This document shows positions 3,858 to 41,037 of a stretch of 44,391 nucleotides of DNA, piece after piece. Position 1 is the stretch's first letter; each line of letters begins with the position of its first letter. This DNA comes from Polyangiaceae bacterium (lineage in GTDB: Bacteria; Myxococcota_A; Polyangia; Polyangiales; Polyangiaceae), in NCBI GenBank assembly GCA_025453595.1, contig JALOQB010000008.1, forward strand, positions 1 through 44,391, given 5' to 3'. The notes under the pieces are model-generated. The model had not been told where the DNA came from, searched no databases, and was given only the letters and a program-made list of their open reading frames with translations. The position numbers were made by a program, and so were the translations under genes.

Positions 3858-5264
3858 TAACCAGTGGCCGTAGCCTACCCGCAGTCCCAGGCCGACCATG
3901 GTGATATTTCGCGCGTCAGAGTAGACGCGCTGCGGCGGCTCCCCGACCCGCAGGTTGCTGATGCCATCGACCGTGACCGCCAGCATGCCGCCGACCAGGG
4001 CCCGCCCGAAGCTGAGCTCGACGCCGGCCTCGACGAGCAGGTACGCGTTGAGGGCCGAGCCCGTGCCGAGGAGCCGGCCGTTGCTGACCGGGCTCCTCAG
4101 GTCGAGCCGGTGATGAGCCCCCCCGACGCCGGTGACCGCGACAAACCGGAAGCGCTCCCCCGGCGTCATGAAGCGCGCGTGGACCCCGAAGCGACGCCCC
4201 CAGAACTCGTAGGTCGCCCCGTCCGCCGGCGCCCGCGGGCACTCGCCGGGGGCGGAGGGCGGCGTGTAACACCCGGGCCCGATGTTGTGCTTGCCGAACT
4301 CGCCCGAGGCCTCCAGGCCGAAGGTGTTGGTGAAGCGGTAACCGAGGCGCAGACCAAAGTACGAGCCGTCGCGGCCGTCGTTGCTGGGAAGGCGAAACCC
4401 GTCCGGGTCCGGGGTGATGACGTAGCTGGTGGCGGTGAGCAGGCCGAAGACGCCGCGGCGCTGGGGGGCGACCGGCGGCGGCGTGTACGGGAAGGGCGTC
4501 TTGTCGTTCGGATCGGTCGTGGGCGGCCCCAGCGCCGCACGGACCACCCGGCGCTCGCCCCGGGCCAGGGTCACCTCGAGCGTCGTGGTGGTGAAGCCGG
4601 TCCGGTAGACCTGGATCACGTGGTGCTCCCCCGCCTCCAGCTCCCCGGTCCAGGCCCCGAAGCTACGGGGCACGCCGTCGATGGCGATCGCCGCCTCCGC
4701 GTCCTCGGCCACCACCGTCAGCTCGGCCACGTTGGCCTCCAGCCGGATCTCGACGGACCTCGGCCCCCCCGCGAAGCTCATCACCTGCTCGAACCCCCGG
4801 TGCCTCGGCGCCTCCGCCTCCACCCGGTGCTCCCCCACGTTCAGCCTCACCTCCCGCTCCCCTCCCCCGGGGATCACCCGGTCATCCACCCGAACCGTGG
4901 CATCCGGAGGTTCTATACGAATGCGGACCACCGCCACCATCGGCTGCATCTCGGCGATGGCCTCGCGGGCGGCGCGCTCGTCCTCGGGTTCGACCGCCCC
5001 CTGGTGGGCCTTGAGCATCTTCTCCAGCGTCGCGATCGCCTCCGCGTAGCGGAACAGGGCGCGCTGGCAGAGGGCGATGTTCTGCAGGGACGAGGGCGTG
5101 GGGCGGAGCCGGTAAGCCTCCTCGAACTCGGCGAGGGCGCCGGCGAAGTTCTTGGCCTGGAACAGCTTGAGCCCCTGCCCGAAATGCTCTTCCGGGGTCT
5201 GCCCGGCCGCGGCCGACGACAGCAGCAGCAGGCAGAGCAGGAGCCTCGACCCGCCTCGCGTCAA
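3858..5264 (-). CDS. TPR/PEGA outer-membrane beta-barrel protein ending at a TTA codon
   Basis: The start is a TTG at 5262-5264. It overlaps the upstream kinase stop as TTGA and has an AAGGA ribosome site 6 nt upstream. The 468-residue protein has a signal peptide (hydrophobic [10 protein letters not shown], cleavage near AAAG), a TPR-like region (about 25-110), one or two PEGA-type beta domains (about 115-250) and a predicted beta-barrel (about 275-468). The last strand ends [13 protein letters not shown], the aromatic-terminal signature typical of BAM substrates. The next codon is TTA (3858-3860), then six codons containing the acs ribosome site. Under the standard code the protein would be fused to Acs (product of 1854-5264). 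That would place a cytosolic enzyme behind an outer-membrane barrel, which is implausible. Confidence 0.75.
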
Positions 5265-6766
5265 AGCTTGTCCTTGAGGCGAAGGCCCGACCCGGACGCC
5301 GCCGGAGACGCGGAGAGCGGGGGGCGCGGGGGCAGCGTGCGGCCGGCGCTGGGGGGCGGGCGGGGCGGCTCCGGGGCTTCGAGAGGTGAGGCGGAGGCGG
5401 AGGCCCCCGGCAACGGATCGAGGGCGAGATGAAGCACGCGGCGCCCGTCGAGCCGGACGCGGCGCACCAGCGGCGCATGCCCCTCGGCCTCGGCCCTCAG
5501 CTCGACCTCGGACAGCGCAGGTCCGCGGATCGGCTGCCCCTCCAGCGGGCGCCCGTCGACCAGGACCCGGGCATGGGCGGGCAGCACCTCGACCCCCATG
5601 GTGACCTCCGGCGGCGGTCGGACCGCCGGGGGCGGCGGCGCAGGGCGCGCGTGGAGCGCGATCCAGGTGCCAGCAAAGGCAAACAGCGCGGCGGCGATGC
5701 CGGGCCACAGCAGCGCCGGGCGCCGCGCGGGCCCCGCCACCGGGACCGAGGGCAGGGGCTCCCGGGGGGTCCAGGTGGGGTTGTCATCGCGAGGCTGCAC
5801 CGGCTCGGCGAGGACCGTCGCCGCCAGGGCCTCGCTGCGCTGGGACAGCAGACCGGGGGCGGCCTGCTGGAGCGCCGCAAGGAAGGCCTGCGCCGAGGGG
5901 AAGCGGGCGGCGGGCTCGCGGGTGAGGGCGACCTTGACCACCTCCGCGAGGGGGGCCGGAACCTCCGGAGTGAAGAGGCGTACGTCCGGCGCATCGCGGC
6001 TGCAGATCGCGACGATCACGGCCTCGTAGCTGGCCAGGGCAGCCCAGGGCGAGCGACCGACCAGGCACTCGAACAGGATCACCCCCACGGAGAACAGATC
6101 GCTGCGCCCGTCGAGCCCCGGGAGCGCCTGGGCCTGCTCCGGGCTCATGTAGTAGGGCGTACCGAGCACCGTGCCTTCCCGGGTGATGGTCGAGGGCCCC
6201 GCCTCGGTGCTGCGGGCGATCTTCGAGATGCCAAAATCGAGGATCTTCACCAGCGGGGCGCCGTCATCTTGACGCACCAGGAAGACGTTATCGGGCTTGA
6301 GATCCCGGTGCACCACCCCCGCCTCGTGCGCCCGCCCCAGCCCCCGGAGGATCTGCGCCGTGATCTGCACCGCCTCCGCCACCGACAGCCGCTGCCCGCG
6401 CCGCAGCCGCGCCCCCAGGCTCTCGCCCTGGAGCAGCTCCATCACCAGGTAAGGCTGGCCTTCCTCGGTGGCGCCGGTGTCAAACACATGGATGATGTGG
6501 GCGCTCTCGACCGCGCTCGCGGCCTCGGCCTCGCGCTGGAAACGCAGGCAAGCCTCGGCGCTCTCCCCCCAGTTCTGGATGAACTTGAGGGCCACGCGCT
6601 TGCCGATGGCCACGTTCTGGCCCTCGTAGATCGCGCCCATCCCCCCCTGCCCCAGGCGACGCAGCACGCGCCACCGGTTGCCCACGACGCGCCCGACAAG
6701 CGGATCGTCCCCTGGCCGAGGGGTCTCCTCGGGGGGGGCAGCGCTCGGGGAGGGCACGTCGCTCAT
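5261..6766 (-). CDS. Membrane Ser/Thr protein kinase with PEGA-like extracytoplasmic domain
   Basis: A 501-residue protein. The Hanks-type kinase domain (about 25-285) has [30 protein letters not shown] and [10 protein letters not shown], so it should be active. A Pro-rich linker, one transmembrane segment (about 345-368) and a PEGA-like beta domain ([19 protein letters not shown]) follow. The C-terminus is Pro/Ser rich. The gene opens a tight minus-strand run with the PEGA/TPR outer-membrane protein (4-base overlap), suggesting that envelope sensing is coupled to phosphorylation. The ATG at 6766 is chosen, and an adjacent GTG at 6769 is equally possible. Confidence 0.93.
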
Positions 6767-6833
6767 CACGGCAGAGGGAGTTTACACACGCCGGAAAGCT
6801 CGGGTACCGCTCCGAGCAAGGAGACGCACAATT

Positions 6834-6849
6834 CGGGGGCAACCCCCCG
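6834..6849 (-). terminator. GC-rich hairpin after rpsT
   Basis: The plus-strand sequence CGGGGGcaacCCCCCG forms a perfect 6-bp stem with a 4-nt loop, beginning 9 bases beyond the rpsT stop. No real U-tract follows (AATTG on the minus strand), so it is only a candidate terminator or 3'-end-stabilising hairpin. Confidence 0.45.
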
Positions 6850-6857
6850 GGAGCGTC

Positions 6858-7133
6858 TCAGGCCTTCGCGGCGAGCGCAGCCTTGTGGGCCGCACGAGCC
6901 AGACGCGCCTTCTTGCGGGAGGCCGTCCGGGGGTGGATCACGCCCTTGGAGGCGGCGCGATCGAGGGACGACACCGCCTCGACCACCTTGGCCTTGCCCT
7001 CGGGGCTCGCCAGGGTCTCGGCGCTGCGGGCGGCCTTGACCTTGGTGCGCACGGCGGCCTTGATCGAGCGGTTGCGGGTGGTGCGCGCGATGCGCTGACG
7101 GTTGCGCTTATCTGCAGATGCGTGATTCGCCAT
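6858..7133 (-). CDS. rpsT: 30S ribosomal protein S20
   Basis: A 91-residue, strongly basic protein with the S20 pattern: it begins MANHASADKRNRQ, is rich in Lys, Arg and Ala throughout, and has the characteristic GVIHPRTASRKKARLA near the C-terminus. S20 binds 16S rRNA early in 30S assembly. Length and ends match the family. It is the second gene of a short unit behind a small basic protein at 7145-7315 and is followed by a GC-rich hairpin. Confidence 0.97.
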   Translation of the reverse strand: MANHASADKRNRQRIARTTRNRSIKAAVRTKVKAARSAETLASPEGKAKVVEAVSSLDRAASKGVIHPRTASRKKARLARAAHKAALAAKA

Positions 7134-7144
7134 GATGCTTTACC

Positions 7145-7315
7145 TAAGCCGGCCTTCACTTCGGGCTTGGAGTCGGCTGCCTTGGGGTCATACCCCTCGG
7201 GGTGGATCGGGAACGCCGGGGTGCCCGACGCACGGCGCTCGCGCTTGTTGCGCTTGCCCGAGGTGGTCGCCTTGCGCCGGCGGATACGGCTGGTCTGTTG
7301 GGTCGAAGAAACCAT
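7145..7315 (-). CDS. Small basic protein (56 aa) ending at a TTA codon
   Basis: ATG at 7315. The 56 codons have GC-rich third positions and encode a very basic peptide containing TSRIRRRKATTSGKRNKRER, then an acidic/Pro tail ending SKPEVKAG. The next codon is TTA (7145-7147), where the coding character stops abruptly (GGT AAA GCA TCA). rpsT starts 11 bases further on. Under the standard code the frame continues 68 more codons to 6938, mostly overlapping rpsT out of frame. The richness in Arg and Lys and the position suggest an RNA- or ribosome-associated protein, but I do not recognise the family with certainty. Confidence 0.65.
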
Positions 7316-7384
7316 TGGGAAGCCTCGCGAAAGAGCCAGGACGGCGTGCGGGGGCGCGGAAAGTGGCGCAACCCCACCCCATTG

Positions 7385-8560: not shown

Positions 8561-8580
8561 GAGTGCATTTTTGGCACGAC

Positions 8581-8609: not shown

Positions 8610-8626
8610 GGGGCCGGCGCTGAGGT

Positions 8627-11564: not shown

Positions 11565-11617
11565 GCGGTTCCGGGGCCTGCAAGGCGGCCCCCTCGTTGG
11601 AGGAGTGTCCCCCCTCG

Positions 11618-16158: not shown

Positions 16159-16202
16159 CCCACCTTCCCTCGCCCGAGAGCGGCCTGGAATGGATCAGAG
16201 GC

Positions 16203-16222
16203 TTTTGATACCCTCATCAAAA
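16203..16222. repeat. A/T-rich inverted repeat TTTTGAT/ATCAAAA
   Basis: A perfect 7-bp inverted repeat with a 6-bp spacer, 45 bases after the regulator stop and inside an A/T-rich island. It could be the regulator gene's 3' hairpin or a protein-binding site. No T-run follows it. Confidence 0.35.
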
Positions 16223-16312
16223 CGAGACACCATCTTTCAGCACTCCCTGAAGGCGATTTCTTTCTATCCATTGCAAATATTAGATTTTTTCCGAGATCAA
16301 CGGGTCAACCGA

Positions 16313-16328
16313 GTCCAGATTTCTGGAC
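16313..16328. promoter_or_regulatory. Perfect palindrome GTCCAGA-TT-TCTGGAC (candidate activator site)
   Basis: 7-bp arms with a 2-bp spacer, centred about 82 bp upstream of the -24 element at 16402. That is a usual distance for an upstream activating sequence bound by an NtrC-family dimer. A further half-site-like GTCCATCCAG follows at about 16331. The cognate regulator is most likely the adjacent product of 14827-16158. Confidence 0.5.
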
Positions 16329-16380
16329 GAGTCCATCCAGCCTGTAGGACAAAAAGAGACAGCCCAGGGATGGTGCCGCG

Positions 16381-16396
16381 AGATCCTGCAGGATCT
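16381..16396. promoter_or_regulatory. 16-bp perfect palindrome AGATCCTGCAGGATCT
   Basis: A gapless 16-bp palindrome ending 4 bp upstream of the sigma-54 promoter match. Its position is too close for a typical enhancer, so a repressor or a second regulator is possible. Confidence 0.45.
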
Positions 16397-16400
16397 GCGG

Positions 16401-16416
16401 TGGCATGGTGGTTGCT
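16401..16416 (+). promoter_or_regulatory. Sigma-54 (-24/-12) promoter for the bilin operon
   Basis: TGGCATGGTGGTTGCT matches the consensus TGGCAYRNNNNTTGCW exactly, with correct GG-GC spacing. The context, just downstream of an NtrC-type activator, supports it. One caveat: transcription would start near 16427, immediately after the AAGGAG ribosome site (16421-16426) of the first gene, giving a very short leader. Confidence 0.6.
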
Positions 16417-16433
16417 GAAGAAGGAGCGTGGCC

Positions 16434-17216
16434 ATGAGCGCTCCTGCGCAACCTCTCACGAAGCAGAACCTCGACGGCTGGGGGGATCGGATCACGACCC
16501 TCGAGAATGCGTTGAAGCGCCAGGGTCACCAGCGGCTGCTGGGGCCGATGGCGACCCTGAGGGACTTTTACGAGTGGCTACGGTCCAGGGAGCCGACGCC
16601 GGAGGCGATGCAGGCGCTGGGGCAGGCGCTGCTGGAGGTGAGGGCCTGCGTGGTGGTTCCGGGGAAGGAGCCGGACGGCCGGGTGTTCGAGCGGTTGAGG
16701 GAGCTCAGCCGACCGGAAGAGGACGAGGCGGCGAGGGCGATGCTGGACAGCTTGGTGGACGCCGGGGAGGCGGAGCTGGAGGCGCTGGTGGCGTCGGTGC
16801 AGCCGGAGAAGCAGGGGAAGCCGCAGGACGATCTGGGGACGCTGAGGGAGCCCCTGACGACGGCCCGAGGGCAGGCGCCGCCGGGGGGGCGTGTGCTGAT
16901 GAAGGGGGAGCTGCAGCCCGGACTGCTCACGGATCTGCTGCAGCTGTTCGCCCAGAACACGGAGACGGGTTGCCTGATGATCGAGGGGCCCGGGCACAGG
17001 GCATCGATCTACTTCCGGGATGGGAGCATCATCGATGCGGAGTGCAAGGGCGACGTGGGGGAGCGAGGGTTCTTCCGCGCGATGATGTGCAAGGAGGGGC
17101 GCTTCGCGTACCAGCGAGGCGTGGCGGCGCCGGAGGAGCGGATCTTCCGGAACGCCCAGCATCTCATCATGGACACGCTCCGGCTCATCGACGAGAGCAG
17201 CGAGGAGCGGCCATGA
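16434..17216 (+). CDS. PATAN (DUF4388) domain protein, first gene of bilin operon
   Basis: 260 residues from ATG 16434, which has AAGGAG 7 nt upstream; an upstream GTG at 16428 is too close to that site. The N-terminal half (about 1-150) is helical and unrecognised. The C-terminal part (about 155-258) is a PATAN/DUF4388 domain: MKGELQPGLLTDLLQLFAQN, GCLMIEG, ASIYFRDGSIIDAECKGDVG, FFRAMMCKEGRFAY. PATAN domains occur in signalling proteins of motile and social bacteria, often beside two-component systems and MglA-like GTPases. It overlaps the next gene by 4 bases. Confidence 0.85.
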   Translation: MSAPAQPLTKQNLDGWGDRITTLENALKRQGHQRLLGPMATLRDFYEWLRSREPTPEAMQALGQALLEVRACVVVPGKEPDGRVFERLRELSRPEEDEAARAMLDSLVDAGEAELEALVASVQPEKQGKPQDDLGTLREPLTTARGQAPPGGRVLMKGELQPGLLTDLLQLFAQNTETGCLMIEGPGHRASIYFRDGSIIDAECKGDVGERGFFRAMMCKEGRFAYQRGVAAPEERIFRNAQHLIMDTLRLIDESSEERP

Positions 17217-17566
17217 CGCTGTCGATGCAGGAGATGCAGCGGCGCATCCAGGAGCGCGACCCGTACCTCTGCATGGCCTACGTCACGGTGGAGGAAGCAG
17301 AGGGCAAGCGGGAAGGGATCGCGAGGACCGTGGATCTCTCTCCCCGGGGCGTCGGTCTGGTGGTCACGCAGGATCTGCCGGTGGAAGCCGGGGTCCGCGT
17401 GGAGCTGCTGACCGCGGGGAACCTATGGCTCCTGGCCCACGGGGTCATCCGCCATCTGTCCCGGACCCCAGAAGGATTGTTCCGCATCGGAGTGGAATTC
17501 ACGGCGCCCCCGGTGCTCGTCGACCGCGCGCCGTCACCGCAGGGAGAAGAGGAAGCGCATGGCTTA
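17213..17566 (+). CDS. PilZ-domain protein ending at a TTA codon
   Basis: ATG 17213 overlaps the preceding stop (ATGA). The 117-residue product is a single PilZ-like domain: REGIARTVDLSPRGVGLVV, the strand VRVELLTAGNLWLLAHGVI, and FRIGVEFTAPP, followed by a short acidic tail ending EEEAHG. The canonical RxxxR motif is not obvious, so c-di-GMP binding is uncertain. The next codon is TTA (17564-17566), which overlaps the GTPase start (17559) by 8 bases. Under the standard code the frame runs 68 more codons to 17770, through the phosphate-binding loop of the GTPase gene. A 212-base overlap would be unique in this operon. Confidence 0.78.
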
Positions 17567-20500
17567 CCTGAACGTCAAGGAGCGCATGCTCGAGGCCAAG
17601 ATCGTCTACTACGGCGCTGGTCTCAGCGGGAAGACGACCAACCTGGAGCTGATCAAGCAGCGGACGCAGGAGGGGCGCTGCGGGGACATGATGTCCCTCA
17701 ACACCGCCGGCGATCGAACCCTGTTCTTCGACTGGTTGCCCTTCAACATGGGCAAGGTCAACGGCTGTGACGTCAAGGTGCAGCTCTACACGGTGCCCGG
17801 CCAGGGGCGCTACGCGGAGACCCGGCGACGGGTTCTTGCTGGCGCGGATGGCATCGTGCTGGTCCTCGACTCCCAGAGCGGAGCGCTGGACAAGAACCGG
17901 GAAATCCTGGCCGACCTGCGGGAGCACATGCGCCTCAACCGGCTCCCGGAGGACCGGGTGCCGATCGTCTTTCAGCTGAACAAGCGGGACTTGCCCTCCG
18001 CCATGGCCCCCGCGGAGCTCCTCGAGGCGCTGGGCCTCACGGAGAAACCCTACATCGAGGCCGTCGCCAGCGTCGGCAAGGGTGTCTTCGAGACCCTGCA
18101 GGAGATCACCCGCCTTGTCCTCGCCTCGGTGCGTGATCAGGCCCGCAGCCCGGGCGCGACCGTCATCCAGAGCGGGACCAACAGCAACCTCGACGGCCAC
18201 ACGCTCTACTCCCAGCTCACCGCCGGCAGCGCGCCGCTGCCGGGGACAGAGACGCCAGAGGACGGGCGCCCTCGCTCCGGGGCCTTCGCCACCGAGCCCA
18301 GCTCCGAGCCCCGGGCCCTCGCCGCCAACGACACCCCCGCGCTGCCTCCTACCATCATCCCGCCGCCGGCGGCGCTCCTCGGAACCTTGCAGCAACCCCA
18401 GTCCACGCCGGTCGCACGCCAGGGCGGGCCTGCGGCGCCCTCTCCGGCGCCGCGCCAGGCCCTGACGCCCGCCCGCGACAGCGACCCCGCGCAGCCCCCC
18501 CGCGTGGCCTCCGCGGCCCCCCCTCGCCTCGCCGTCGCGCCAGCCCCGGCCCCCGAGTCGCGCCCTGTCAGCCCCCCCGAGCCGCTGCCATCCGCCCCTC
18601 TCAACGAGGTCATCGGCGTCCTGCGTACCCTCGGTCGCCGCGTCGACGCCCTCGAACCTTCCCTGCTCCAGAAGGTCACGGCCCTCCTGGCGGACCAGCG
18701 GCGCAACGCCGCCCAGTCCAGCGACGAGGTGGCCCAGCGTGTCGCCCAGCTGTCGACCCGCGTCGACGAGCTCCAGCAGTCCCTTTCCCTCCGCCTCGAC
18801 GAGCGCGGCGCCGTCCTCCAGCAAGCGCTCCAGGGGGCCGCCAGCGAGCAGGCCGAGGCCGCTCGTCTCGCGGAACGTCGCGTGGACGACCTCCTCGGCG
18901 CGCTCCGACAGCAAGCCGAGGCCCTCCGTGTACGCCTCGACGAGCACGAGCAACGGATCCAGGCCGACCAGTCCACCCTGCTCCAGGGCCTCCAGCAGCG
19001 CGTCGAGGCTCACGCGCAGTCGTCGAGCGACACCCTCCGGGCCCAGCACCTGGCCCTTGACGAGCAGTCCAGGGCTTTCCAGGAGTCCGTGGGGGCAGAG
19101 CTGGCAAAGCTCCAGACAGCGCTGGAGCGTGTGGTCCGGGAGGTGGAGGGTACCCCCCCCTTGACGGAGCTGGGGGAGCAAATCGCCGCGCGGACCGTCG
19201 AGCAGATCTCGGAGCGGTTCGGAGAGCGGACCGAGGCCCTCCAGAGCGCGCTCCACGCGCGCGTTGGACCGCTCGAGGAGGCGGTGCGGGCCGGGGCCGA
19301 GGGGATGGCCAGCCTGAGGGCGCAGGCACACGGGCTCCAGGGGGAGCTCGCGGGCATCAAGGAGCAGCTCGGGGGCGAGCTCGCCCGGCTCGGAGGTCAG
19401 CTGCTCGTCCGGGCGGAAAGCCAGGGGAACGAGCTGCATCAGGCCCTGCAAGCGCAAGGAAAGAAGCAGGAGCAGCGGGAGGAGGAGGCGCTACGCCAGC
19501 GAGAGGCACAAGAGGAGCGGATCCGGAAGGAGCTGGCGGCGGCGAGGCAAGAGCAGGCGGCGCAAGTCCGGGGGCTGGAGAGCCGCCTCGAAGGGCTGGA
19601 GAAGCGCCTGGAGGCCGCCGGGGAGCGAAGCAAGGTGGAGCAGGCCGCCCTGGTAAAGCAGGTGGCAGAGCTTGTGGAGCGTCAGCTGGCGGGCCAGATC
19701 GAGGGGCTCTGGGGCCGCCTCGAAGGGCGCCTCAAGGCGGGGGAGGATCGGCAACAAGAGGAGCAAGGAAAGCGCATCGAGCAGCTCGTGGGGAGCGGGA
19801 ACGCAAGGAGCCAGGAGGCCCTGGATTCGGTGCGGCGCGAGGTGTCTGCCGCATGGATGGTGCTCGACGGTCGGCTCGGGAACATGGAGCGCATGGTCCA
19901 GACGTCGGAGGCGACGCTGCAGATGCTGGAGGAGAAGCAACCCCGGCTGGAGCAGTTCCTGCGGACGACGGACCAGGCCGTCGGGGACACGCTGCGGGTG
20001 CTGCGAGCGGCGGATCAGCGACTCCAGGAGTCGACGGACGCGTCCGCTCGCCTCACCGAGGTGAGCACGGAGCTGGCGCGCGCGCTGGGCGAGGAGAAGA
20101 CCCGGACCGAGGGGGCCATCGAGCGCATCGAAGCGCTCCGGGATCCGATGTCCGCGGCCACCCAGGCGCTCCTCGGCGGCGCCAGGGACATCGAGGCCAT
20201 CAAGGCCGCCACCGGCGCCATGCACGGTACGGTCAGCTCCATCGGCACGGCGCTGGGCACGATGAACAGCGCCGCGGGGGTGATGCGGGGGAGCGAGAAG
20301 ACGATGGCGGTGGCGGCGGTGGCCATGGGAGAGGCGGCCCGGGCGATGGGCGAAGGGGTGCGCGCGATCGACGGCCGCATCGGGGAGCAGGAGAAGTGGC
20401 TCCGTGCGCTGAAAGAGCAGCTCTTGCTGGTCGAGAAGAACACCCAGCAGGCGATCGGCAAGCTGGGCGCCCTGGAGCAAGCAACCCAGGGGCTGCAGGG

Positions 20501-21269
20501 GCAGAGCCGCGCGACCAGCGAGGCGCTCGTGTCCCTGCAGGATGGTAGCAAGGCGCTGCTCGCCGCGAACCACACCCACCTCGATGCGACGCGCGGGGTG
20601 GTGAACAGCGCCCGGGAGGCGCTCGGCCAGCGGCTGGGGGACCTGGGCGGAACCCTCGGGGCGCTGGCGGAGGAGCTGCGCAGGACGCTCAAGGACACGA
20701 TCCAGACGCTGATCGTGGAGATCGCCGCGGTGAAGGGGGTCATGGATGGGCGGATCGTCGACCTGATCAAGCAAGGGGAGCTGCGGAACCAGGCGCTCCG
20801 GGAGCAGCTGGAGAGGCGGCTCCAGGCGCTGGACACGAAGGTGGTCGCGGCCAGCGAGCTCCAGCAGCTCCTCGCCGGGACGAAGGACAGCATCCTGACC
20901 GAGTGCAACGCCACCACCAGCGCGGCCCGGGATGCGCTGCAAACCGTGCAAAAAGAGACGCAGAACGCGACGCTGATGCTCCTGCGGGAGGTGCGCCAGG
21001 GCCAGGGCGGCCTGGAGCAGCGGCTCCACCGGGTCGAGCAAGGGGTGACCGAGGCTCACGGGGCCATGGGTCAGCGCATCCAGGGGGTGGCCGAGGCCCA
21101 CGGGGCTCTCGACCGGAAGCTCAGCGCGACCCTCGTGAGCCTGCAAGAACAGCTGTCCCAGCAGCAGCAAGGCAACGGCGCTCAGCTGCGGCAGGTGGAC
21201 GAGCAGCTCCGGCAGCTCGTGGAGCTGCTGCGACAGGCCGCGGAGAAGAAGGGCTGGTGGCGGGCCTGA
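17559..21269 (+). CDS. MglA-like small GTPase fused to a very long coiled coil
   Basis: 1236 residues; ATG with a GAGGA ribosome site. Residues 1-195 are an MglA/SofG-type Ras-like GTPase: P-loop YYGAGLSGKTTN, DWLPF in switch I, TVPGQGRYAETRRRVLAGAD in switch II, VLVLDSQ and NKRDLP for guanine specificity. Residues about 195-340 are Pro/Ala/Ser-rich. From about 345 to the end are near-continuous heptads (ELQQSLSLRLDERG, ARQEQAAQVRGLESRLEGL). It ends in VELLRQAAEKKGWWRA. The coiled coil may act as a filament or scaffold. MglA-type GTPases set cell polarity in myxobacteria; a potential LC7-type partner is encoded two genes downstream. Confidence 0.93.
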   Translation: MAYLNVKERMLEAKIVYYGAGLSGKTTNLELIKQRTQEGRCGDMMSLNTAGDRTLFFDWLPFNMGKVNGCDVKVQLYTVPGQGRYAETRRRVLAGADGIVLVLDSQSGALDKNREILADLREHMRLNRLPEDRVPIVFQLNKRDLPSAMAPAELLEALGLTEKPYIEAVASVGKGVFETLQEITRLVLASVRDQARSPGATVIQSGTNSNLDGHTLYSQLTAGSAPLPGTETPEDGRPRSGAFATEPSSEPRALAANDTPALPPTIIPPPAALLGTLQQPQSTPVARQGGPAAPSPAPRQALTPARDSDPAQPPRVASAAPPRLAVAPAPAPESRPVSPPEPLPSAPLNEVIGVLRTLGRRVDALEPSLLQKVTALLADQRRNAAQSSDEVAQRVAQLSTRVDELQQSLSLRLDERGAVLQQALQGAASEQAEAARLAERRVDDLLGALRQQAEALRVRLDEHEQRIQADQSTLLQGLQQRVEAHAQSSSDTLRAQHLALDEQSRAFQESVGAELAKLQTALERVVREVEGTPPLTELGEQIAARTVEQISERFGERTEALQSALHARVGPLEEAVRAGAEGMASLRAQAHGLQGELAGIKEQLGGELARLGGQLLVRAESQGNELHQALQAQGKKQEQREEEALRQREAQEERIRKELAAARQEQAAQVRGLESRLEGLEKRLEAAGERSKVEQAALVKQVAELVERQLAGQIEGLWGRLEGRLKAGEDRQQEEQGKRIEQLVGSGNARSQEALDSVRREVSAAWMVLDGRLGNMERMVQTSEATLQMLEEKQPRLEQFLRTTDQAVGDTLRVLRAADQRLQESTDASARLTEVSTELARALGEEKTRTEGAIERIEALRDPMSAATQALLGGARDIEAIKAATGAMHGTVSSIGTALGTMNSAAGVMRGSEKTMAVAAVAMGEAARAMGEGVRAIDGRIGEQEKWLRALKEQLLLVEKNTQQAIGKLGALEQATQGLQGQSRATSEALVSLQDGSKALLAANHTHLDATRGVVNSAREALGQRLGDLGGTLGALAEELRRTLKDTIQTLIVEIAAVKGVMDGRIVDLIKQGELRNQALREQLERRLQALDTKVVAASELQQLLAGTKDSILTECNATTSAARDALQTVQKETQNATLMLLREVRQGQGGLEQRLHRVEQGVTEAHGAMGQRIQGVAEAHGALDRKLSATLVSLQEQLSQQQQGNGAQLRQVDEQLRQLVELLRQAAEKKGWWRA

Positions 21270-23560: not shown

Positions 23561-24202
23561 ATGTCGGTCATTATCGGCCCCCAACCCGTCAAACACAACA
23601 TCTACAACCTGGAGGATTTCTACCAGTTCGACCCGGAGCGCGGGACCATCCAGACCCGCAACGCGCAGCGCGCGGTGATGGTGTCCGAGGACTTCATCGC
23701 CGGCCTCATCGCCGGCCTCGATGAGGAGGTGGGCGATGCCGCCGCCGTGGTCCTCTACAAGTGCGGTTACCAGTGGGGCGTCGCCGATATGAAGAAGTTC
23801 GAGGCGACCTTCGCCCGCGAGTTCGGCCAGGACATGCAGGCAACCCACATCAACATGGTCATGGAGACCTGGTGGTGGCCGCTCCAGACGATGGGCTGGG
23901 GCAGCTGGGAGGTCGACCTGTCGAAGGGGGATCAGGGCATCGTCGTGGTCAACCTCTACGACTCGGCCATCGCCAAGACCCTGGGGGAGGTGGGCAAGCC
24001 GGTCTGCTACCTCTATGCAGGCATGTTCGCCGGCGTGATGAGCCACCTGGCGCGTCGCCCCCTCTCCGGCATCGAGATCCAGTGCTACGCGATGGGCGCG
24101 ACCTACTGTCGCTTCGTCGTGGGCGCCGAGTCCCGCATCAACGCGGTCGAATTCTGGCTGGAGGAGGGGGCGTCGGCCAGCGACGTCCTCGCGAAGCTCT
24201 GA
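23561..24202 (+). CDS. V4R-domain protein 1 (4-vinyl reductase / BchJ-like)
   Basis: 213 residues, ATG with GGAGCG upstream. The C-terminal two-thirds form a V4R domain: YKCGYQWGVADMKKFE, then the signature GIEIQCYAMGATYCRFVVG with two Cys. V4R domains bind small hydrophobic or tetrapyrrole-like ligands; BchJ, in bacteriochlorophyll pathways, is the eponym. Here a role in carrying or sensing heme, biliverdin or a reduced bilin is inferred. The N-terminus (KHNIYNLEDFYQFDPERGTI) matches that of the paralogue at 25034, showing duplication inside the operon. Confidence 0.88.
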   Translation: MSVIIGPQPVKHNIYNLEDFYQFDPERGTIQTRNAQRAVMVSEDFIAGLIAGLDEEVGDAAAVVLYKCGYQWGVADMKKFEATFAREFGQDMQATHINMVMETWWWPLQTMGWGSWEVDLSKGDQGIVVVNLYDSAIAKTLGEVGKPVCYLYAGMFAGVMSHLARRPLSGIEIQCYAMGATYCRFVVGAESRINAVEFWLEEGASASDVLAKL

Positions 24203-24552: not shown

Positions 24553-25037
24553 ACAAGCAGCTCAAGACCATGTTGTTCAAGGCCGAAGGCCGCTACTTCG
24601 ACGAGGCCGAGGCCGCCTTCCTCATGGGCTACGCCGAGGCCACCCTCGCCCGCCTCGACACCGCCCAGGCCATCGAGCGCGCCGAACCCGTGATCCTCGA
24701 CGATGTCGTGGCGGCCGTGATGACCGCGCACCCCGAGATCCAGCGAATCCACGGCGACGGCGGCGCCCCCCGCGTCCGCCGTGATCAGGCCATGACCCTC
24801 CGCTATGCGACCCTCGCCATGATCCAGCAAGACCCGGATTTCATCCACGACAAGTTCGCCGTCTGGCTCCGCGTCATCCTCGGCGCCCTCTGCGCCCTCG
24901 AGCATGTCACCTGCGGCTACCGCGCCCTCATCGATGCCTGCCGTCGCCACCTCCTCCCCGACGACGCCGCCGCCGTCATCCCTTACATCCAGATCGTCCT
25001 CGATCAGTTCGAGCAGCCAGGAGCCAGGTCATCATGA
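24549..25037 (+). CDS. Phycobiliprotein-like globin (BBAG) 1
   Basis: 162 residues from GTG 24549 (GTGA overlap, GGGAGG ribosome site). It has the phycobilisome-protein fold signature: KAEGRYFDEAEAAFLMGYAE at the N-terminus, aligned with NADAEARYLSPGEL of allophycocyanin, then RRDQAMTLRYATLAMIQQD at the chromophore helix and CGYRALIDACRRHLLPDDAA at the C-terminus. The position of the bilin-linking Cys (C84 in phycobiliproteins) holds Arg or Val, so covalent attachment there is not expected. It belongs with the bilin biosynthesis-associated globins (BBAGs) of non-photosynthetic bacteria, which occur beside heme oxygenase and bilin reductase genes. Confidence 0.85.
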   Translation: MNKQLKTMLFKAEGRYFDEAEAAFLMGYAEATLARLDTAQAIERAEPVILDDVVAAVMTAHPEIQRIHGDGGAPRVRRDQAMTLRYATLAMIQQDPDFIHDKFAVWLRVILGALCALEHVTCGYRALIDACRRHLLPDDAAAVIPYIQIVLDQFEQPGARSS

Positions 25038-25708
25038 TGCGCCCCGACGAAGTGCAGCCCAGGGCCCGCAATTTCTACAACGAGGAGGATTACTTCTCCC
25101 TCAACGTCCGCAACGGCATCCTCCGCTCCCCGACCGGCACCCGCATGCTCGCCCTCCCCGAGGAGATGATCCAGGGGTTTCACGCCGGCCTCGAGGACGA
25201 GACAGGCGCCGCCGCCCCCGTGATCCTCTACCAGTGCGGCCGCTGGTGGGGGCGCCAGTGGGCACGCCGCCACGGCGCCGAGATCCGCCAGTTCTACGCC
25301 ACCGACGCCGGCGAGCTCCCCCTCGCTTTCTACCTCCAGGTGCTCCGCCGCGTCTGGGCGCTCTGCGGGTGGGGCAGCATCGAGATCTCCTTTGACCTCC
25401 GGAACGAAGGCTTCATCGAGTGCTCCCTGCAGCACGGCTTCTACAGCGAGATCGTCGGCAACATCGGCCGTACCACCGACGACCTCGTGGCCGGCGTCCT
25501 ATCCGCCATCCTCTCCGATATCTCCGGACGCGACCTCGAATGCATCGAGATCGCCTGCCGCAGCAAGGGCGACCTTCGCTGCCACTTCCTCGCCGGGATC
25601 AAGCCCCGCGTCAGCGTCGTCCGGGAGTGGGTCAAGCAAGGGCGCAGCCGCGCCCACATCATCGAGGCAATCGCCCAGGGCGACATCCGCTTACGGGAGG
25701 CACCATGA
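25034..25708 (+). CDS. V4R-domain protein 2
   Basis: 224 residues, paralogous to the 23561-24202 product. It has NFYNEEDYFSLNVRNGILRS at the N-terminus, ILYQCGRWWGRQWARRHG, and the V4R signature LECIEIACRSKGDLRCHFLAG with both Cys. It overlaps the upstream globin by 4 bases. The sixth in-frame TTA of the window lies at 25691-25693: read as a stop, the protein ends GDIR, and read as Leu, it ends five codons later at a TGA overlapping the next ATG (ATGA). This is the one TTA case that is neutral, because the ATGA overlap is normal for this operon. Confidence 0.87.
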   Translation: MMRPDEVQPRARNFYNEEDYFSLNVRNGILRSPTGTRMLALPEEMIQGFHAGLEDETGAAAPVILYQCGRWWGRQWARRHGAEIRQFYATDAGELPLAFYLQVLRRVWALCGWGSIEISFDLRNEGFIECSLQHGFYSEIVGNIGRTTDDLVAGVLSAILSDISGRDLECIEIACRSKGDLRCHFLAGIKPRVSVVREWVKQGRSRAHIIEAIAQGDIRLREAP

Positions 25709-26804: not shown

Positions 26805-27505
26805 ATTCACCCGACGAACGCCCTGTCCGAGGGCCCCTCCTCGACCTCTCCACCGCCCTCGTGTCCTTGCTACGCGGCGCCCCCTGGCTCCATACCGCCA
26901 GCGAGAGCTCCGTGGAAGGTCGCCTCGGCGCCGAGCACCTCCAGCTTCGCACCATGGCCTTCCAGGGCGGCCCGCTCCGCTGGGGGCGCCACGTCGAGCT
27001 CCAGGGCGATCAGGGCACCCTCGCCCTCAACACCTGCTTCTTCCCCGAGCGCACCAGCACCCTGCCCCTCCTGAGCTGCGAGATCCTCGTTCTCCGCGAC
27101 CGCCTCCACCTCATCGCCCTGGACGCGCTCCCCTGCAGCTCCGCCCACGAGAGCTCATGCCGTACCCTCCTGCTCCGCAGCCGACACCTCCTGCAGATCC
27201 CCGAGCAGCCTCACGCCATCCCTCCCTGGGCCCAGGCCATCTCCAGCCCCTGGGCGATCTTCCTCCGCCGCCCTTCCACGCTCCCCTCGGCGGACCGCCT
27301 CGTCTCGGGGGTCCAGCAGGCAACCGAGTCGTTCCTGGAGCTGGCCACACGCCCCGTCGGACACGGCACCCCGGACCCTGCCCCGCAGCGCATGTTCCTC
27401 GCGGCGATGAGCGAGAATGACCCCGCCGTGGCTTACCTCGGGCGCGCGTTCGGGGCCACCTGGGCCCGCAAGTACTGCGAGGAGACCCTGTTCCCCCCAT
27501 GCTAG
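26765..27505 (+). CDS. Ferredoxin-dependent bilin reductase (PcyA/HY2 family, pre-PcyA-like)
   Basis: 246 residues from ATG 26765, typical FDBR length. Family hallmarks: SSVEGRLGAEHLQLRTMAF, RWGRHVELQG with the His equivalent to the catalytic PcyA His, CFFPERTSTLPLL, IALDALP, and a C-terminal LGRAFGATWARKYCEETLF matching the PcyA ending. It should reduce biliverdin to a phytobilin with ferredoxin electrons. By my alignment from memory, the usual active-site Asp in the LPxxxxD segment reads as Glu (LPLLSCEIL). The exact product, phycocyanobilin or another bilin, cannot be told. It ends in TAG and overlaps the kinase gene by 7 bases. Confidence 0.85.
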   Translation: MAEDSAPAGQGLLNSPDERPVRGPLLDLSTALVSLLRGAPWLHTASESSVEGRLGAEHLQLRTMAFQGGPLRWGRHVELQGDQGTLALNTCFFPERTSTLPLLSCEILVLRDRLHLIALDALPCSSAHESSCRTLLLRSRHLLQIPEQPHAIPPWAQAISSPWAIFLRRPSTLPSADRLVSGVQQATESFLELATRPVGHGTPDPAPQRMFLAAMSENDPAVAYLGRAFGATWARKYCEETLFPPC

Positions 27506-29088
27506 GCGACCCGTCTCTCTTGCGAGGAGCGGTCCCGGGTGAGCACCTCGCCGAGCGCTACCTGGTCGAGCGCGTCATCGGCCAGGGGGCCTACGGCCGG
27601 GTGTTCCTCGCGCGAGACCTCGTCTCCCAGACACCCGTCGCGCTCAAAGAATTCATCAGGAACCAGGGCCGCTCTGACAGCTTTGTCCGCGAGGTCGGGA
27701 TCCTCTTCGAGATGGCCCACCCGGCGATCATCCGGTGCCATACCCTCCTGGTCCTGGGGCCCTTTCGTTACATCGTCTTCGAGTTCCTCGATGGCGGCTC
27801 CCTCCGCGAGCTGCTCGACGGACAGGCCGACCTGCGGCTCCTCCTCGCCTTGCTGCTCGAGGCAGCCTCCGGCGTCGCCTACGCCCATCGCAAGGGCATC
27901 GTCCACCGGGACCTCAAGCCCGAGAACATCCTCCTCCAGCGCGCCCAGGACGGCCTCCACGCCAAGGTCTCCGACTTCGGGATCTCCGTCCTAGGCACCT
28001 CCCGCGGGAGCAACCCCGTGGGCTCCCCGGCCTACATGGCCCCGGAACAATTCCAGGAGCAGCACGACGAGCGCGTCGACATCTACGCTCTCGGCATCTT
28101 GCTCTACGAGATCCTCTGCGGCCGGCGCCCCTTCGAAGGGAGCCCCGCCTTCCTCATGTCCTGCCACATTCACTCCGAGATCGAGCTCCCGGAGTGGCTC
28201 CCAAGACCCCTGGCCCGCGTCATCCGGAAGGCCACCTCCAAGCGCCCCGAGCGGCGCTTCGCCTCCGTCGATGGCTTCTGCCTCGCCCTCGAGTCTGCCC
28301 TCGACCCGGCCACCTGGGATATCCTCCAGAACCGCTGGAGTCATGTATCTTCTCAGGTCCACGCCCTCGCCGTCAGCGACCAGGAAATCCTCGTCCTCCA
28401 GGACAACGAATGCCTGCGCCTCTCCCACCAGGGTCGCCTGGTTCGCCGCATCCAGGGGGTCGACGGAGCCCTGTGCAGCGGCCGCTACAGGGCCCTCGTC
28501 TCCGCGGATCGGGTCCAGCTCGAGGGCCCCTCTCTCCGTCGATCCCTCCGGGGCGTCTCTGGCCCCGTGGCCCTCTCCCACGAGGGCGCCCTCGCCTTCC
28601 TCGCCAGCGGCCGCCCCGTGTGCATCGATCGCTCCGACCATCGACGGCTCCTCCCTCCCCTCGGTGACCCCCTCTGCCTCGGCTTCGTTGGCCCCGAACA
28701 GTGCCTCGCCGTTGCCTACCTCAGCCCCTCCGGCCCCTTCCTCGACATCAACGGTCAGCGCCTCCAGCTCCCCGAACCCATCATCGCCTTCCACGGGAAC
28801 CCGGAGCGCGAGGAGCTCGTGGCCCGCAGCGCCGTCCACCCGGAGCGGCTCTTCCTCTTGCACAACAACCAGCTCTGGACCCGCCACCTCGCCGCCGGCA
28901 CGCTCTCCTGCGACGGAGACCACTTCTATGGCGTCACCAGCGAGGGTCAGCTCGCCTCCCTCAACCTACCCAAGGATCGCGTCGCCATCACCCGCTGGAC
29001 CTCCCCCCTCGCCGCGATCGGTGCAGGCGCCCACCGCCTCGCCTGGGTGGATCGCGCCGGTACCCTCGGCATCGAGGAGAACCTGTTA
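27499..29088 (+). CDS. Ser/Thr protein kinase with C-terminal repeat domain, ending at a TTA codon
   Basis: 529 residues to the TTA at 29086-29088. The kinase domain (about 18-275) has GQGAYGRVFLARD, VALKEF, HRDLKPEN, DFGISVLG and GSPAYMAPEQ, all catalytic residues present. The C-terminal part (about 300-529) is made of short beta-rich repeats (LVVLQDNECLRLSHQGRLV-like units) suggesting a beta-propeller-type sensor. No transmembrane helix. As the last gene of the bilin operon it may read out the bilin/globin state. Under the standard code the frame runs 154 codons further to 29550, antisense through the Hsp70 gene, with non-coding composition. Confidence 0.85.
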
Positions 29089-34555: not shown

Positions 34556-34581
34556 CGGCTCGATGGGGCGCCGGGCGCGGT

Positions 34582-36108
34582 TCACAGGTGCGCGGCGCGG
34601 TAGCGGACCAGGGCCTGACGGTGCAGCAGGTTGACCTCGACCGGTAGCCGCGCCTCATCCGGGGCCAGGTCAAAGAAGGAACGCAGCGTCGGACCATCGA
34701 GGTACGAGAGGCCCGGGGGGAGCCCGGCCGCGGAAGGTACCACCAGCGGCTCCCGCGCGAAGAGCGCGTAGCCCCAGGACCCCATCGTGGGCAGCTGGGC
34801 ACGGTACGGCAGCGCCTGCAAACCCGCGGCCTCCAGCGTCCCGATGACGCACCAGAAGGCCTCACGCTGCGCCAGCGGCGAGGCGTTGGCCACCACCGCA
34901 CCGACCCCACCAGGCGCCAGATTTTGCTCGATCTGCTGGTAAAAATGGCGCGTGTACCACTTGGACCGGCGGGGCCCTTCCGGATCGAGGAGATCGAGCA
35001 AGATGACGTCAAAGACCCCCGCTTGAGGCAGCCACAGCGAGGGATCCGCACGCACCACCTTCACCTTCGGCGACGCAAAGGCCCCGCCGTTCTCCCGGAG
35101 CAACACCGGCTGCGTGCGCGCCAGCTCCAGCAGCCCCCACTCGGGCTCGATCACCTGGACCTGCTCCACGTCCGGATAACGCAGCACCTCCCGCAGCGTC
35201 GCCCCGTCTCCCCCGCCCACCACCAGCACACGCCGGCGCCGCTTCGCCCCGAGCAACGCCGGGTGCGCCGCCGCCTCCCGGCGCCGACCTGCGTCGATGG
35301 TCGATAGCCTCAGCAACCCGTCCACATGCAGCTGGAACGCCCCCCGCCCCGAGGTCATCACCACCCGGCTCACCGCGCTGTTATGCACCAGGATCGCTGG
35401 ATCCGACGAGAGCCCGACCTCCCGCAGCGGGGTGAGGGGCTCGGCCAGCCCCTGCGCCGCCGTCAGCCCAAAGCAACCTGCCATCGCCCACCGCCGGGCC
35501 TGCCGCGCCCGGGGGTCCAGGCGCGGCCCCAGGCTCAGGCCCAGGTGCGCCACCAGGCCGCAGCCCAGCGCGAGCAGGAGCAGCATCCGGAGGGGGCCCA
35601 GCCGATCGGCCGTCAGCAGGTAGAGAACGACCATACCCAGGACGAGGGCCAGGGCGTCAACGCGCAGCAGATCGAGGAGCGCGGAGCGGTCGAAGGCGAG
35701 GGACGCCACGAGGCGCCCCTGGGCGACGGCGTAGGAGCCGAGCAGGGCGCCAAGGGCGAGGGCGAGCAGGTAGACCCAGGGGGCGAACCAGGAGAGGGAA
35801 GAGAACGCAGGGAACGAGCCGAGGAGGGCGAAGGCGACGGCCAGGGCGAAGGCGAGAAGCAGCAGCGGGGCGCGCCAGGGCGGAGCGTGGCGGGCGCGGA
35901 GCTGGAGGGCCGCGGCCACCAGGACCGAGGCGACATGGAGGGCGAAGGCCCAGCGCCCCGAGGCAGCGGCATCGAGGAGCAGGTAAGCAGCGCCTCGCTT
36001 GAAGAGGGCGAGGTGCCAGAGGGCAAAGGGGAGCAGGCAGGAGAGGGCGACAAAGATCGCCTTGCGCCTGTCCCCTGGCCCCCCCGAGGGGAGCAAGGGA
36101 GGGCTCAC
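34582..36108 (-). CDS. Membrane-anchored spermidine-synthase-like protein
   Basis: 508 residues from GTG 36108 (GTGA overlap with the upstream gene). About seven transmembrane helices occupy residues 15-215 (ALSCLLPFALWHLALF, LLLLAFALAVAFALLGS). The C-terminal half is an aminopropyltransferase-type Rossmann domain: VLVVGGGDGATLREVLRYP, QVIEPEWGLLELAR, FDVILLDLLDP, then KWYTRHFYQQIEQNL. Family members transfer aminopropyl groups from decarboxylated SAM, but membrane versions have uncertain activity. It occurs with DUF4178 and DUF350 genes in many bacteria, a conserved envelope-related set. Confidence 0.88.
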   Translation of the reverse strand: MSPPLLPSGGPGDRRKAIFVALSCLLPFALWHLALFKRGAAYLLLDAAASGRWAFALHVASVLVAAALQLRARHAPPWRAPLLLLAFALAVAFALLGSFPAFSSLSWFAPWVYLLALALGALLGSYAVAQGRLVASLAFDRSALLDLLRVDALALVLGMVVLYLLTADRLGPLRMLLLLALGCGLVAHLGLSLGPRLDPRARQARRWAMAGCFGLTAAQGLAEPLTPLREVGLSSDPAILVHNSAVSRVVMTSGRGAFQLHVDGLLRLSTIDAGRRREAAAHPALLGAKRRRRVLVVGGGDGATLREVLRYPDVEQVQVIEPEWGLLELARTQPVLLRENGGAFASPKVKVVRADPSLWLPQAGVFDVILLDLLDPEGPRRSKWYTRHFYQQIEQNLAPGGVGAVVANASPLAQREAFWCVIGTLEAAGLQALPYRAQLPTMGSWGYALFAREPLVVPSAAGLPPGLSYLDGPTLRSFFDLAPDEARLPVEVNLLHRQALVRYRAAHL

Positions 36109-37571: not shown

Positions 37572-37578
37572 GGGAGAG

Positions 37579-37794
37579 CTACCCCTTGATGGCGGCCGAG
37601 ATGATCAACGACAGACCGATGATGACCGAGCCGATCATGATACCCAGCGCGGTGTTCTGATCTTCCTCGATCTCTTTCCGCAGCGAGAACGGCAGGACCG
37701 CCTTGATGATCATGAAGCTGATCCCGAAGAGGACCATGCCAATGAACGAGAACACCACGCTGGAAATGATCTGCTTGACGAGATCGCCAGGCAT
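37579..37794 (-). CDS. DUF350 family small membrane protein
   Basis: 71 residues with two transmembrane helices (SVVFSFIGMVLFGISFMIIK and GIMIGSVIIGLSLIIS) and a conserved charged loop PFSLRKEIEEDQN between them, the DUF350 pattern (UPF0719-like). ATG 37794 has GAAGG 6 nt upstream and the gene ends in TAG. It opens a three-gene unit with DUF4178 and the spermidine-synthase-like protein. Confidence 0.85.
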   Translation of the reverse strand: MPGDLVKQIISSVVFSFIGMVLFGISFMIIKAVLPFSLRKEIEEDQNTALGIMIGSVIIGLSLIISAAIKG

Positions 37795-38059
37795 CGCTTC
37801 GCCTTCCTCCCTGGGGGTCAGGGTGCCGTGCCACGCGGGTCACCTCGACCCGCCCAGCCTCCCTCACGCGTATCCCATGTCCCACCCGACAGCAACGCCC
37901 GCCAGAATCGGTGAAGTTTTCCACGGTGCCTCGAAGCTTGTCCTGACGCCCTGCGACACGCAAAAGAAACCGCGCGTTGTGCCTTGGCGACCCTGCCCCT
38001 CATGGTAGCTTCAGAGCCCTTCCCCTCTACCCCCCTGAAACCGACAGGTGATCCCCTCG
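37795..38059. other. Divergent intergenic region (DUF350 and PAD promoters)
   Basis: 265 bp between divergent genes, locally A/T-richer around 37905-37925 and 37965-37980. No ORF is convincing and no clear -10/-35 or sigma-54 pair is readable. It must contain promoters for both units. Confidence 0.4.
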
Positions 38060-40075: not shown

Positions 40076-40092
40076 ACCCCCAGGAGCACACC

Positions 40093-41037
40093 ATGCGCAA
40101 ATACCTCTTCTCTTCTCTCCTCCTCGCCCCGGCGCTCCTCGGCCTCTCCCCTCGTGACGCCCTCGCCAACGGCGCCGTCGTCCACGCGGCCCAGCTCTCC
40201 GACGCCGCCCGCGCTTCCCTCTCCCAGGAGGTCGCCAAGGCTCGCAAGGCCTCCCCCGATGCCTTCCTCGCCCTCGATCGCATCGCCCAGCGCCTCCCCG
40301 AGATGGACGCCGCCAAGCGCGGCCGCTTCGCCCCCATCACACCCCAGCTCAAGCGCCTCGGCTCCAGGGCCCTCTTGCCCATGCTCGAGCGCGCCGCTCT
40401 CCAGTCCCCCCCTCGCGGCTCCCTCTCCGACTCCGCCTGGAAGGCCTGGCGCCTCGCCCTCATCGAGGCCTCCAGCATGCACCGCGACCCCCGCGCTCTC
40501 CCCGTTTACCTCGCCGTCCTCCAGGGACAGGACGACGACTTTGACGTCCTTCGCGTCACCGCCGAGGCCATCGGTCGTGTCGGCGACGACGCTGCCCTCC
40601 AGCAGCTCATCGACGCAGCCCGCAAGGCCGGCCCCCGCCAGCGCGGCCTCCTCGCGGGCCTCGGCATCGCCCAGCGCCTCGCCGCCACCCAGGCCCTCGC
40701 CGACGCAGCGCGCGGCAAGCTCGGTCAGCTTGATGACTCCACCCTCCACCTGGTGGCCAAGGCCCTCGGCGACGCCGGCTCCGCCTGGACCTGGAAGCTC
40801 GCCAAGGAGCACAAGGACGAAGAAGCTGCCGTTCGTTCCCTCGCCGCCAGCGCCCTCGTCGATCTGTTCGTGGCCAGCGAAGGTCGCCCTCGTCAGGGGG
40901 CCACCGCCGGCCTGTTGATGGTCGACGACGCCTCTACCCCCCAGCTCATCGCCCAGGCGCGCAAGGGGGCAACCCCTGCCCTCGCCGCAGCCCTCGACGA
41001 GCTGGCCGAGCGCGTCGCCAGGAACCCCCTGCGCTTA
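40093..41037 (+). CDS. Secreted HEAT-repeat-like protein ending at a TTA codon
   Basis: 314 residues to the TTA at 41035-41037. ATG 40093 has AGGAG 7 nt upstream. The signal peptide ends near DALANG. The mature part is wholly helical with HEAT-like pairs (VYLAVLQGQDDDFDVLRVTA, EAIGRVGDDAALQQLIDAAR, LVAKALGDAGSAWTWKLAKE). It ends LAERVARNPLR, then TTA, after which codons become AGG/AGA/TCA-rich. Under the standard code the frame runs 147 codons more to 41478, antisense through the next two genes. It lies 17 bases after PAD, so it may form a partner or accessory protein of the deiminase. Confidence 0.78.

Follow-up and report, generated by a model that had tools for sequence, protein, structure and literature searches.

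We analysed the use of the codon TTA in a 44,391-nucleotide stretch from the draft genome of a Polyangiaceae bacterium (contig JALOQB010000008.1, hereafter the window) and in related genomes. Our comparisons show that, as far as sequence can tell, TTA acts as a stop throughout the sampled part of this genome and that the changes in its release factor 2 (RF2) are lineage-specific. UUA, a leucine codon in nearly every other cell, has very probably switched to signalling termination in the genus of the window and in a sister genus, where it would be read by the altered RF2. The initial annotation of the window had proposed UUA as a stop codon in this organism, and this proposal is supported by a coding continuity test, the gene ends of orthologues and RF2; a search of incomplete drafts for the cognate tRNA found none. 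The source genome (G000) is a draft bin of 7.65 Mb in 570 contigs with a guanine plus cytosine (GC) content of about 70%; the window is its contig C495, with 65–75% GC along its length. For comparison we used G018 from the same genus and G038 from the sister genus. G000, G018 and G038 are draft bins that are 81, 84 and 84% complete, respectively.

In the continuity test, sites preceded by 40 open, coding-like codons were collected, and for each site it was asked whether the next 40 codons code in the same frame. The codon model was filtered by GC content at third codon positions (GC3) and assigned zero weight to TTA as well as to TAA, TAG and TGA, which makes the test blind to the code. The samples comprised 61 stretches of G000 (897,027 bases, window included), 261,335 bases of G018, 545,637 bases of G038 and 96 loci (310,085 bases) of other family members. 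The 594 gene-end-like sites of G000 consisted of 55 TTA, 20 TAA, 57 TAG and 462 TGA codons, and coding continued after 2, 0, 7 and 19 of them, respectively. After sense codons it continued at 144 of 214 CTA, 616 of 874 TTG and 39 of 56 ATA sites; the comparison of TTA with CTA gave 3e-19 in a Fisher test. Continuing sites numbered 0/9 for TTA, 250/391 for CTA and 1/91 for TGA in G018, and 1/20, 45/60 and 20/310 in G038. Among codons with at least 8 sites, TAA, TAG, TGA and TTA displayed the lowest continuity in each of the three genomes. In the other family members, coding continued after 8 of 15 TTA codons (two of the eight being adjacent codons of one gene), 45 of 74 CTA, 6 of 172 TGA and 5 of 26 TAA codons; G033 alone had 1 of 2 TTA sites continuing, too few to judge. 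Thus, the placement of TTA at gene ends described for the window extends over 0.9 Mb of G000.

Different versions of the model gave 0/35, then 0/33 and 2/65 (two thresholds, first model) continuing TTA sites in G000, and the GC3-filtered model gave 2/64 at a threshold of 4 and 1/46 at a threshold of 8. We preferred the final 2/55 over 2/64, since the 64-site set holds several TTA codons that lie a few codons past a true stop. The first model, built on the longest open reading frames (ORFs), was discarded, as antisense frames had entered it where GC is highest (in G033 and G038 the codons GTA and CTT were inflated). The two continuing sites in G000 are the TTA at 3858 in the window, which is followed in frame by an acetyl-CoA synthetase gene, and one at position 16798 of a sampled stretch (L066). 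The latter lies past a FabH-like match (residues 93–420, TTA at 436) and has an ATG after one more codon; read by eye, a separate small gene seems to start there in frame.

All six in-frame TTA codons reported by the initial annotation are present in the window. Those at 17564, 25691, 29086 and 41035 are on the plus strand; at 3858 and 7145 a TAA on the plus strand is a TTA on the minus strand, and the position given earlier is the lowest coordinate. The genes concerned are as follows:

About 5264–3858, minus strand: gene for a TPR-containing protein (start uncertain; PEGA-like by eye), with TTA at 3858..3860.
1854..3839, minus strand: acetyl-CoA synthetase gene, beginning 18 bases past the TTA at 3858 in the same frame.
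7315–7145, minus strand: open frame of 56 codons with TTA at 7145..7147; the coding score is +9.3 before and −28.5 after it in the same frame, and profile scans gave no family match.
About 7133–6858, minus strand: gene for ribosomal protein S20, read by eye, beginning 11 bases past the TTA at 7145.
16190–17566, plus strand: PilZ-domain gene (PilZ at residues 350–439) with TTA at 17564..17566, residue 459.
17559–21269, plus strand: small-GTPase-like gene with Arf/Ras-type matches; its start overlaps the TTA end of the PilZ gene.
25034–25693, plus strand: V4R-domain gene (V4R at residues 151–188) with TTA at 25691..25693 and a TGA 4 sense codons later.
27499–29088, plus strand: Ser/Thr protein kinase gene (Pkinase at residues 22–254) with TTA at 29086..29088; the coding score is +9.4 before and −11.7 after it.
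About 40093–41037, plus strand: HEAT-repeat-like gene with TTA at 41035..41037.

If read through, the frames would stay open for 667 (3858), 68 (7145), 67 (17564), 4 (25691), 153 (29086) and 146 (41035) further codons. The trinucleotide TTA occurs 40 times in the window and TAA, its minus-strand equivalent, 27 times, mostly outside coding frames. We scanned the window with a codon model in which TTA and the stops have zero weight, and five of the six noted sites (25691, 29086, 41035 and, on the minus strand, 7145 and 3858) appeared as TTA after coding sequence. The site at 17564 was missed, its upstream coding score being weak (−1.2 over 40 codons); directly after it the frame of the next gene (+1) scores strongly. 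A looser setting added a TTA at 35381 that is absent from the initial annotation and also has a negative in-frame score downstream. With a scan width (W) of 30 and a threshold of 3, the gene-end-like sites of the window were 25 TGA, 4 TAG, 1 TAA and 6 TTA; the initial annotation had put the ends other than TTA at about 33 TGA, 2 TAG and 1 TAA. No TTA was seen in gene interiors by the code-blind scan, in agreement with what had been claimed for the window. The only window TTA with coding continuing in the same frame is that at 3858. Here, a 1284-codon open frame has TTA as residue 617 and Pfam matches to ACAS_N (658–711), AMP-binding (721–1109) and AMP-binding_C (1170–1248) beyond it, so that without a stop at UUA the TPR-containing and acetyl-CoA synthetase genes would be one fused gene.

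We also note that the window holds a second V4R-like gene (23582–24193), 29% identical to the V4R-domain gene, and that by our own count the kinase has at least 18 or so distinct matches in the sampled stretches of G000. An Rfam search of the window gave no match at the gathering score.

The positions of TTA were then compared with protein families. We scanned 30 of the 64 TTA-containing frames of G000 against NCBIfam or Pfam, choosing mostly those with the longest upstream parts. A family match was obtained for 25 of the 30, and no match shown reached more than three residues beyond TTA; only the best stretch per family was considered, so that lesser crossing stretches are possible. The matches that reach or pass TTA are ribosomal protein L33 (TIGR01023, to TTA itself) and those at L098:4321 (by 1 residue) and L082 (by 3 residues). 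Several matches end just before it, with L33 aligned to 50/50, DUF7873 to 242/244, an aldo/keto reductase to 289/291 and an esterase to 251/251 positions. In elongation factor EF-G the TIGR00484 match covers the family up to position 690 of 691 and stops at residue 757, and TTA is codon 760; most of its best matches align to residue 702 or 703 of 703. In 5 of the 30 frames a different domain follows TTA (SecE, CocE/NonD hydrolase, Mur ligase, exo/endonuclease/phosphatase and methyltransferase).

The clearest case is L33 (rpmG). Matches were found in 55 of 60 family genomes, and 30 loci, G038 not among them, were cut and read by tblastn alignment; a regular-expression search for the L33 ends had found only 6 of the 30 and was abandoned. 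Codon 51, directly after residue 50, is TTA in G000 and TAG, TGA or TAA in 29 of 29 others, TAG being the one used by G018. The tRNA-Trp gene starts 10 bases past this TTA (L029 17785). Reading through it would therefore carry the frame across tRNA-Trp into secE.

Orthologues were also read for window genes. At 41035 the G018 orthologue has TGA at the identical codon; a match was present in 29 genomes, from which 10 loci were cut, and of 8 further relatives 7 have their stop no more than 3 codons away while 1, aligned only to residue 304, stops 11 codons past the alignment. At 25691, a single close relative was found (G053, with 52% identity), and its gene ends in TGA at the identical codon. 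At 3858 the G018 orthologue (74% identical) likewise carries TTA at the same codon, and the next stop of translation table 11 is a TGA at +6. Twenty other genomes align through residue 447 of 447, the last before this TTA, and 4 of them were read; TGA follows 3 codons later in G023 and G013, and no stop lies within the stretch read in G036. Thus, the initial claim that TTA falls where the gene or domain is complete fits the orthologue ends at the three of the six window sites that were compared (3858, 25691 and 41035).

Next, we compared the counted with the expected number of TTA codons, the latter calculated as TTG × CTA / CTG. G018 uses 13.1 TTG and 9.3 CTA codons per thousand and only 0.18 TTA; about 208 TTA codons are expected in its training ORFs (56,717 codons) and 10 were counted. 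The frequent CTA and TTG but rare TTA in a species of 60% GC suggest that a new meaning of UUA is held in place. In G000 and G038 the expected TTA frequency is 0.09 per thousand, a scarcity that follows from high GC and fits the codon-capture model. The training ORFs of these two genomes hold more TTA than expected (58 against 17 in G000, 20 against 10 in G038), because ORFs cut only at the three usual stops overrun TTA ends; by the continuity test the excess sites are gene ends, apart from the exceptions named in this text. Interior TTA codons do occur in other family members, in prfA of G040 and in prfB of G004.

Leucine tRNAs were sought among Rfam hits of at least 80 bases, the length of leucine tRNAs, and read with ARAGORN (7 of 7 read in G018 and 4 of 4 in G038). 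The anticodons CAA, CAG, GAG and UAG are present in each of G000, G018 and G038. The search for tRNA-Leu(UAA) that the initial annotation had suggested found none among the long tRNA hits of the three drafts, all of them incomplete. In G000 the other long tRNAs, four for Ser as well as that for Tyr, were found. An exact Leu(UAA) pattern had hits in 34 of the 60 family genomes, with G000, G018 and G038 all lacking one. All four tested hit loci are tRNA-Leu(UAA), and 13 listed leucine tRNAs of the three genomes carry the D-arm half of the pattern. Extra leucine tRNAs (CAG, CAA and GAG), several of them in tandem, occur on contigs C72, C465, C14 and C183 of G000 (L019, L021, L022 and L020) and possibly derive from mobile tRNA arrays.

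RF2 of G000 is 91% identical to that of its genus mate G018, yet the two genomes differ in GC content (70% and, in the first sample, 60.5%). Identity is 75% with G038 and at most 65% with all other family genomes; at 59%, the closest named RF2 among the matches listed is from the uncultured delta proteobacterium Loclat_bin-17204. Of the 59 family genomes in which RF2 was matched, 30 had the locus cut (G042 was not extracted), and the comparison set of 104 sequences combined 26 family genomes with 78 of the 79 named records, which their titles place mainly in the Alphaproteobacteria. RF2 of G000, G018 and G038 has Gly where 103 of the 104 others have Asp (the remaining one is X), Gln at a position with Thr in 96 of the 104 and Gln in none, and Phe in place of a Leu four residues before the serine of the SPF motif (103 L and 1 I in the others). 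The three also have an insertion in common, with two alignment columns gapped in all 104 others and three extra residues in the printed sequences. In E. coli RF2 numbering, obtained by alignment, these positions are Asp 143, Thr 139 and Leu 201, with SPF at 205–207. We take Asp143, together with Glu167 and Arg213, to govern the codon specificity of E. coli RF2, and Asp143 presumably adjoins the serine that reads the second base. The SPF serine itself is kept in all three and in 104/104 others. Further residues common to the three, His 12, Ser 115, Phe 125 and Val 200, are less telling because those columns vary. Overall, changes in the codon-reading domain that are common to the three RF2s and absent from the 104 others agree with an unusual release factor of the kind that the initial annotation had suggested looking for. 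A change of SPF to SPY together with RRHTSF to RRQTAF was considered as the sole cause and rejected, as both are widespread in other RF2s. In RF1, read for G000 and G018, the PAT...HTST motif is as in relatives. A weak RF2-like match also lies on contig C87 of G000 (42058–42513), with 30% identity over residues 3–154, in the N-terminal part only.

We propose that an ancestor of high GC content had come to use TTA very rarely and that tRNA-Leu(UAA) was then lost, which would have removed the competitor at UUA. The codon-reading domain of RF2 would have changed so that U was accepted as second base and UUA was terminated besides UGA, with RF1 unchanged and reading UAG and UAA. The second base alone sets UUA apart from UAA and UGA, and an altered second-base site would let RF2 accept U there. 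The role of RF2, as opposed to some other factor, in reading UUA, the residues responsible and the order of events are our inference. With only slightly less confidence, we suggest that at least two related genera use a four-stop code that arose through near-loss of TTA, loss of the tRNA and re-specification of RF2 at the site that reads the second base, and that this is the first case of a sense codon turned into a stop in a cellular genome.

Other explanations were weighed against this reassignment. That UUA still means leucine and the six window cases stem from lost stops, wrong bases or faulty gene models is hardly credible. TTA is rare in GC-rich relatives, so that few sites were available in the window, and one interior TTA does exist in metH of G038; however, the same pattern is found on many contigs and in three separately binned genomes, G018 has far fewer TTA codons than expected with none of its nine tested sites continuing, and other family members do carry TTA inside prfA and prfB. 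Base errors or stop loss were rejected in view of the like pattern at many sites in the three bins. It is quite unlikely that UUA is simply unassigned, with neither a tRNA nor a release factor and with stalled ribosomes freed by transfer-messenger RNA (tmRNA) or ArfA/ArfB-type rescue, so that genes would only seem to end at UUA. For this the absence of tRNA-Leu(UAA) would suffice and no change of RF2 would be required, but RF2 did change in the same lineage, TTA accounts for 55 of the 594 gene-end-like sites in G000 and ends EF-G and L33, proteins needed in large amounts, and a second species (G018) retains TTA at the end of the 3858 gene.

That RF1 or some further protein resembling a release factor reads the UUA stop in place of RF2 is unlikely as well. 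This has a precedent in pedinophyte mitochondria, which pair UUA and UUG stops with an altered mtRF1a (PMC12574857), and the match on C87 could be taken for such a protein. However, that match spans the N-terminal part only, the PAT and HTST motifs seen in relatives are intact in the RF1 sequences of G000 and G018, and the lineage-specific changes found sit in RF2.

Several observations weigh against a reassignment of UUA. The most direct is an interior TTA in a housekeeping gene, named as refuting by the initial annotation, which was found once in G038 and not in G000:

L236:5624–9433 (G038), minus strand: metH, encoding cobalamin-dependent methionine synthase; a single interior TTA is its residue 612.

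This TTA lies in the conserved Pterin_bind domain and coding continues after it; it is the only clear interior TTA shown by the continuity test in the samples of the three genomes, and it could be a base error or reflect incomplete reassignment in the sister genus. Concerning the tRNA, at 81–84% completeness tRNA-Leu(UAA) could sit in a gap, and long tRNAs are indeed incomplete outside G000 (G018 has 3 of 4 Ser and no Tyr tRNA, G038 neither Ser nor Tyr). Judging from completeness, and if gaps are independent, the gene would be missed in all three bins by chance about once in 200. The exact pattern is also without a hit in 23 of 57 other family genomes, among them G004, which has no hit yet carries two adjacent TTA codons followed by a conserved tail in prfB; the pattern search was therefore not accepted as sole proof of tRNA loss. 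On contig C300 of G000 (L023 14096–18119) lies a degenerate array of 32 ARAGORN tRNA genes, including one without clear anticodon and one with anticodon UUA, which is expected to read UAA. There is no leucine tRNA within this array, and the UUA tRNA was rejected as a hidden tRNA-Leu(UAA): a one-base shift of the loop breaks the stem when folded by hand, and at 73 bases it has no long variable arm. In RF2, SPY for SPF (31 of 104 others) and Gln for His in RRH (37 of 104) are common elsewhere and cannot alone be the cause. Finally, the GC gap of about 10% between G018 and its genus mate makes foreign contigs in the G018 bin possible; these would raise, not lower, the number of sense TTA codons.

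If UUA is indeed a stop here, a large bacterial genome would have given up a sense codon for termination, and the lineage would offer a natural RF2 of new specificity that could be used to study reading of the second base. Standard annotation would then fuse genes throughout the lineage, as with L33, tRNA-Trp and SecE in one frame. No bacterial UUA stop appeared among the papers listed from the literature searched, which did not extend to preprints or most subscription journals, and within that literature a sense codon turned stop has been described for organelles only. A UUA stop in this lineage would also point to a blind spot of published code screens, in which new stop codons are not modelled.

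Among known systems, genetic code 23 of NCBI, the Thraustochytrium mitochondrial code, equals the bacterial code with TTA as an added stop. It resembles the code proposed here in the UUA stop, and differs in serving a mitochondrial genome of few genes and not bacterial drafts of about 5–8 Mb. Sense-to-sense code changes occur in bacteria. According to PMC8629427, the bacterial changes known before it gave UGA the meaning Gly or Trp, and its Codetta screen cannot detect new stop codons. The UGA-recoded bacteria are thus alike in that a bacterial code has changed, and unlike in that the change there is from stop to sense. In Sphaeropleales mitochondria, UCA or UCG stops occur with an altered mtRF1a (PMC6821328); there too a sense-to-stop change is tied to release-factor mutations, though in other codons, another release factor and an organelle.

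The closest parallels are UUA stops in two kinds of organelle (PMC12574857). In peDinoflagellate plastids, which the authors call the first known sense-to-stop case outside mitochondria, UUA and UCA are stops and pRF2 is altered. They have in common with our genomes the change of UUA from Leu to stop (proposed here), a normal-looking RF1 (read in G000 and G018) and an altered codon-binding region of RF2. The plastids have lost the cognate tRNA, which was not found in our incomplete drafts either, and differ in using UCA as an additional stop. Labyrinthulea mitochondria likewise combine a Leu-to-stop change of UUA with a changed codon-binding region, in an mtRF2a whose conserved serine is replaced. 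In these organelle factors the replaced residue is Ser204, which from its position we equate with the SPF serine. In contrast, RF2 of G000, G018 and G038 keeps this serine and has Asp to Gly, Thr to Gln, Leu to Phe and an insertion instead. A UUA stop derived from a sense codon is therefore known from organelles, and its occurrence in a bacterial genome, together with a different set of RF2 changes, appears to be new.

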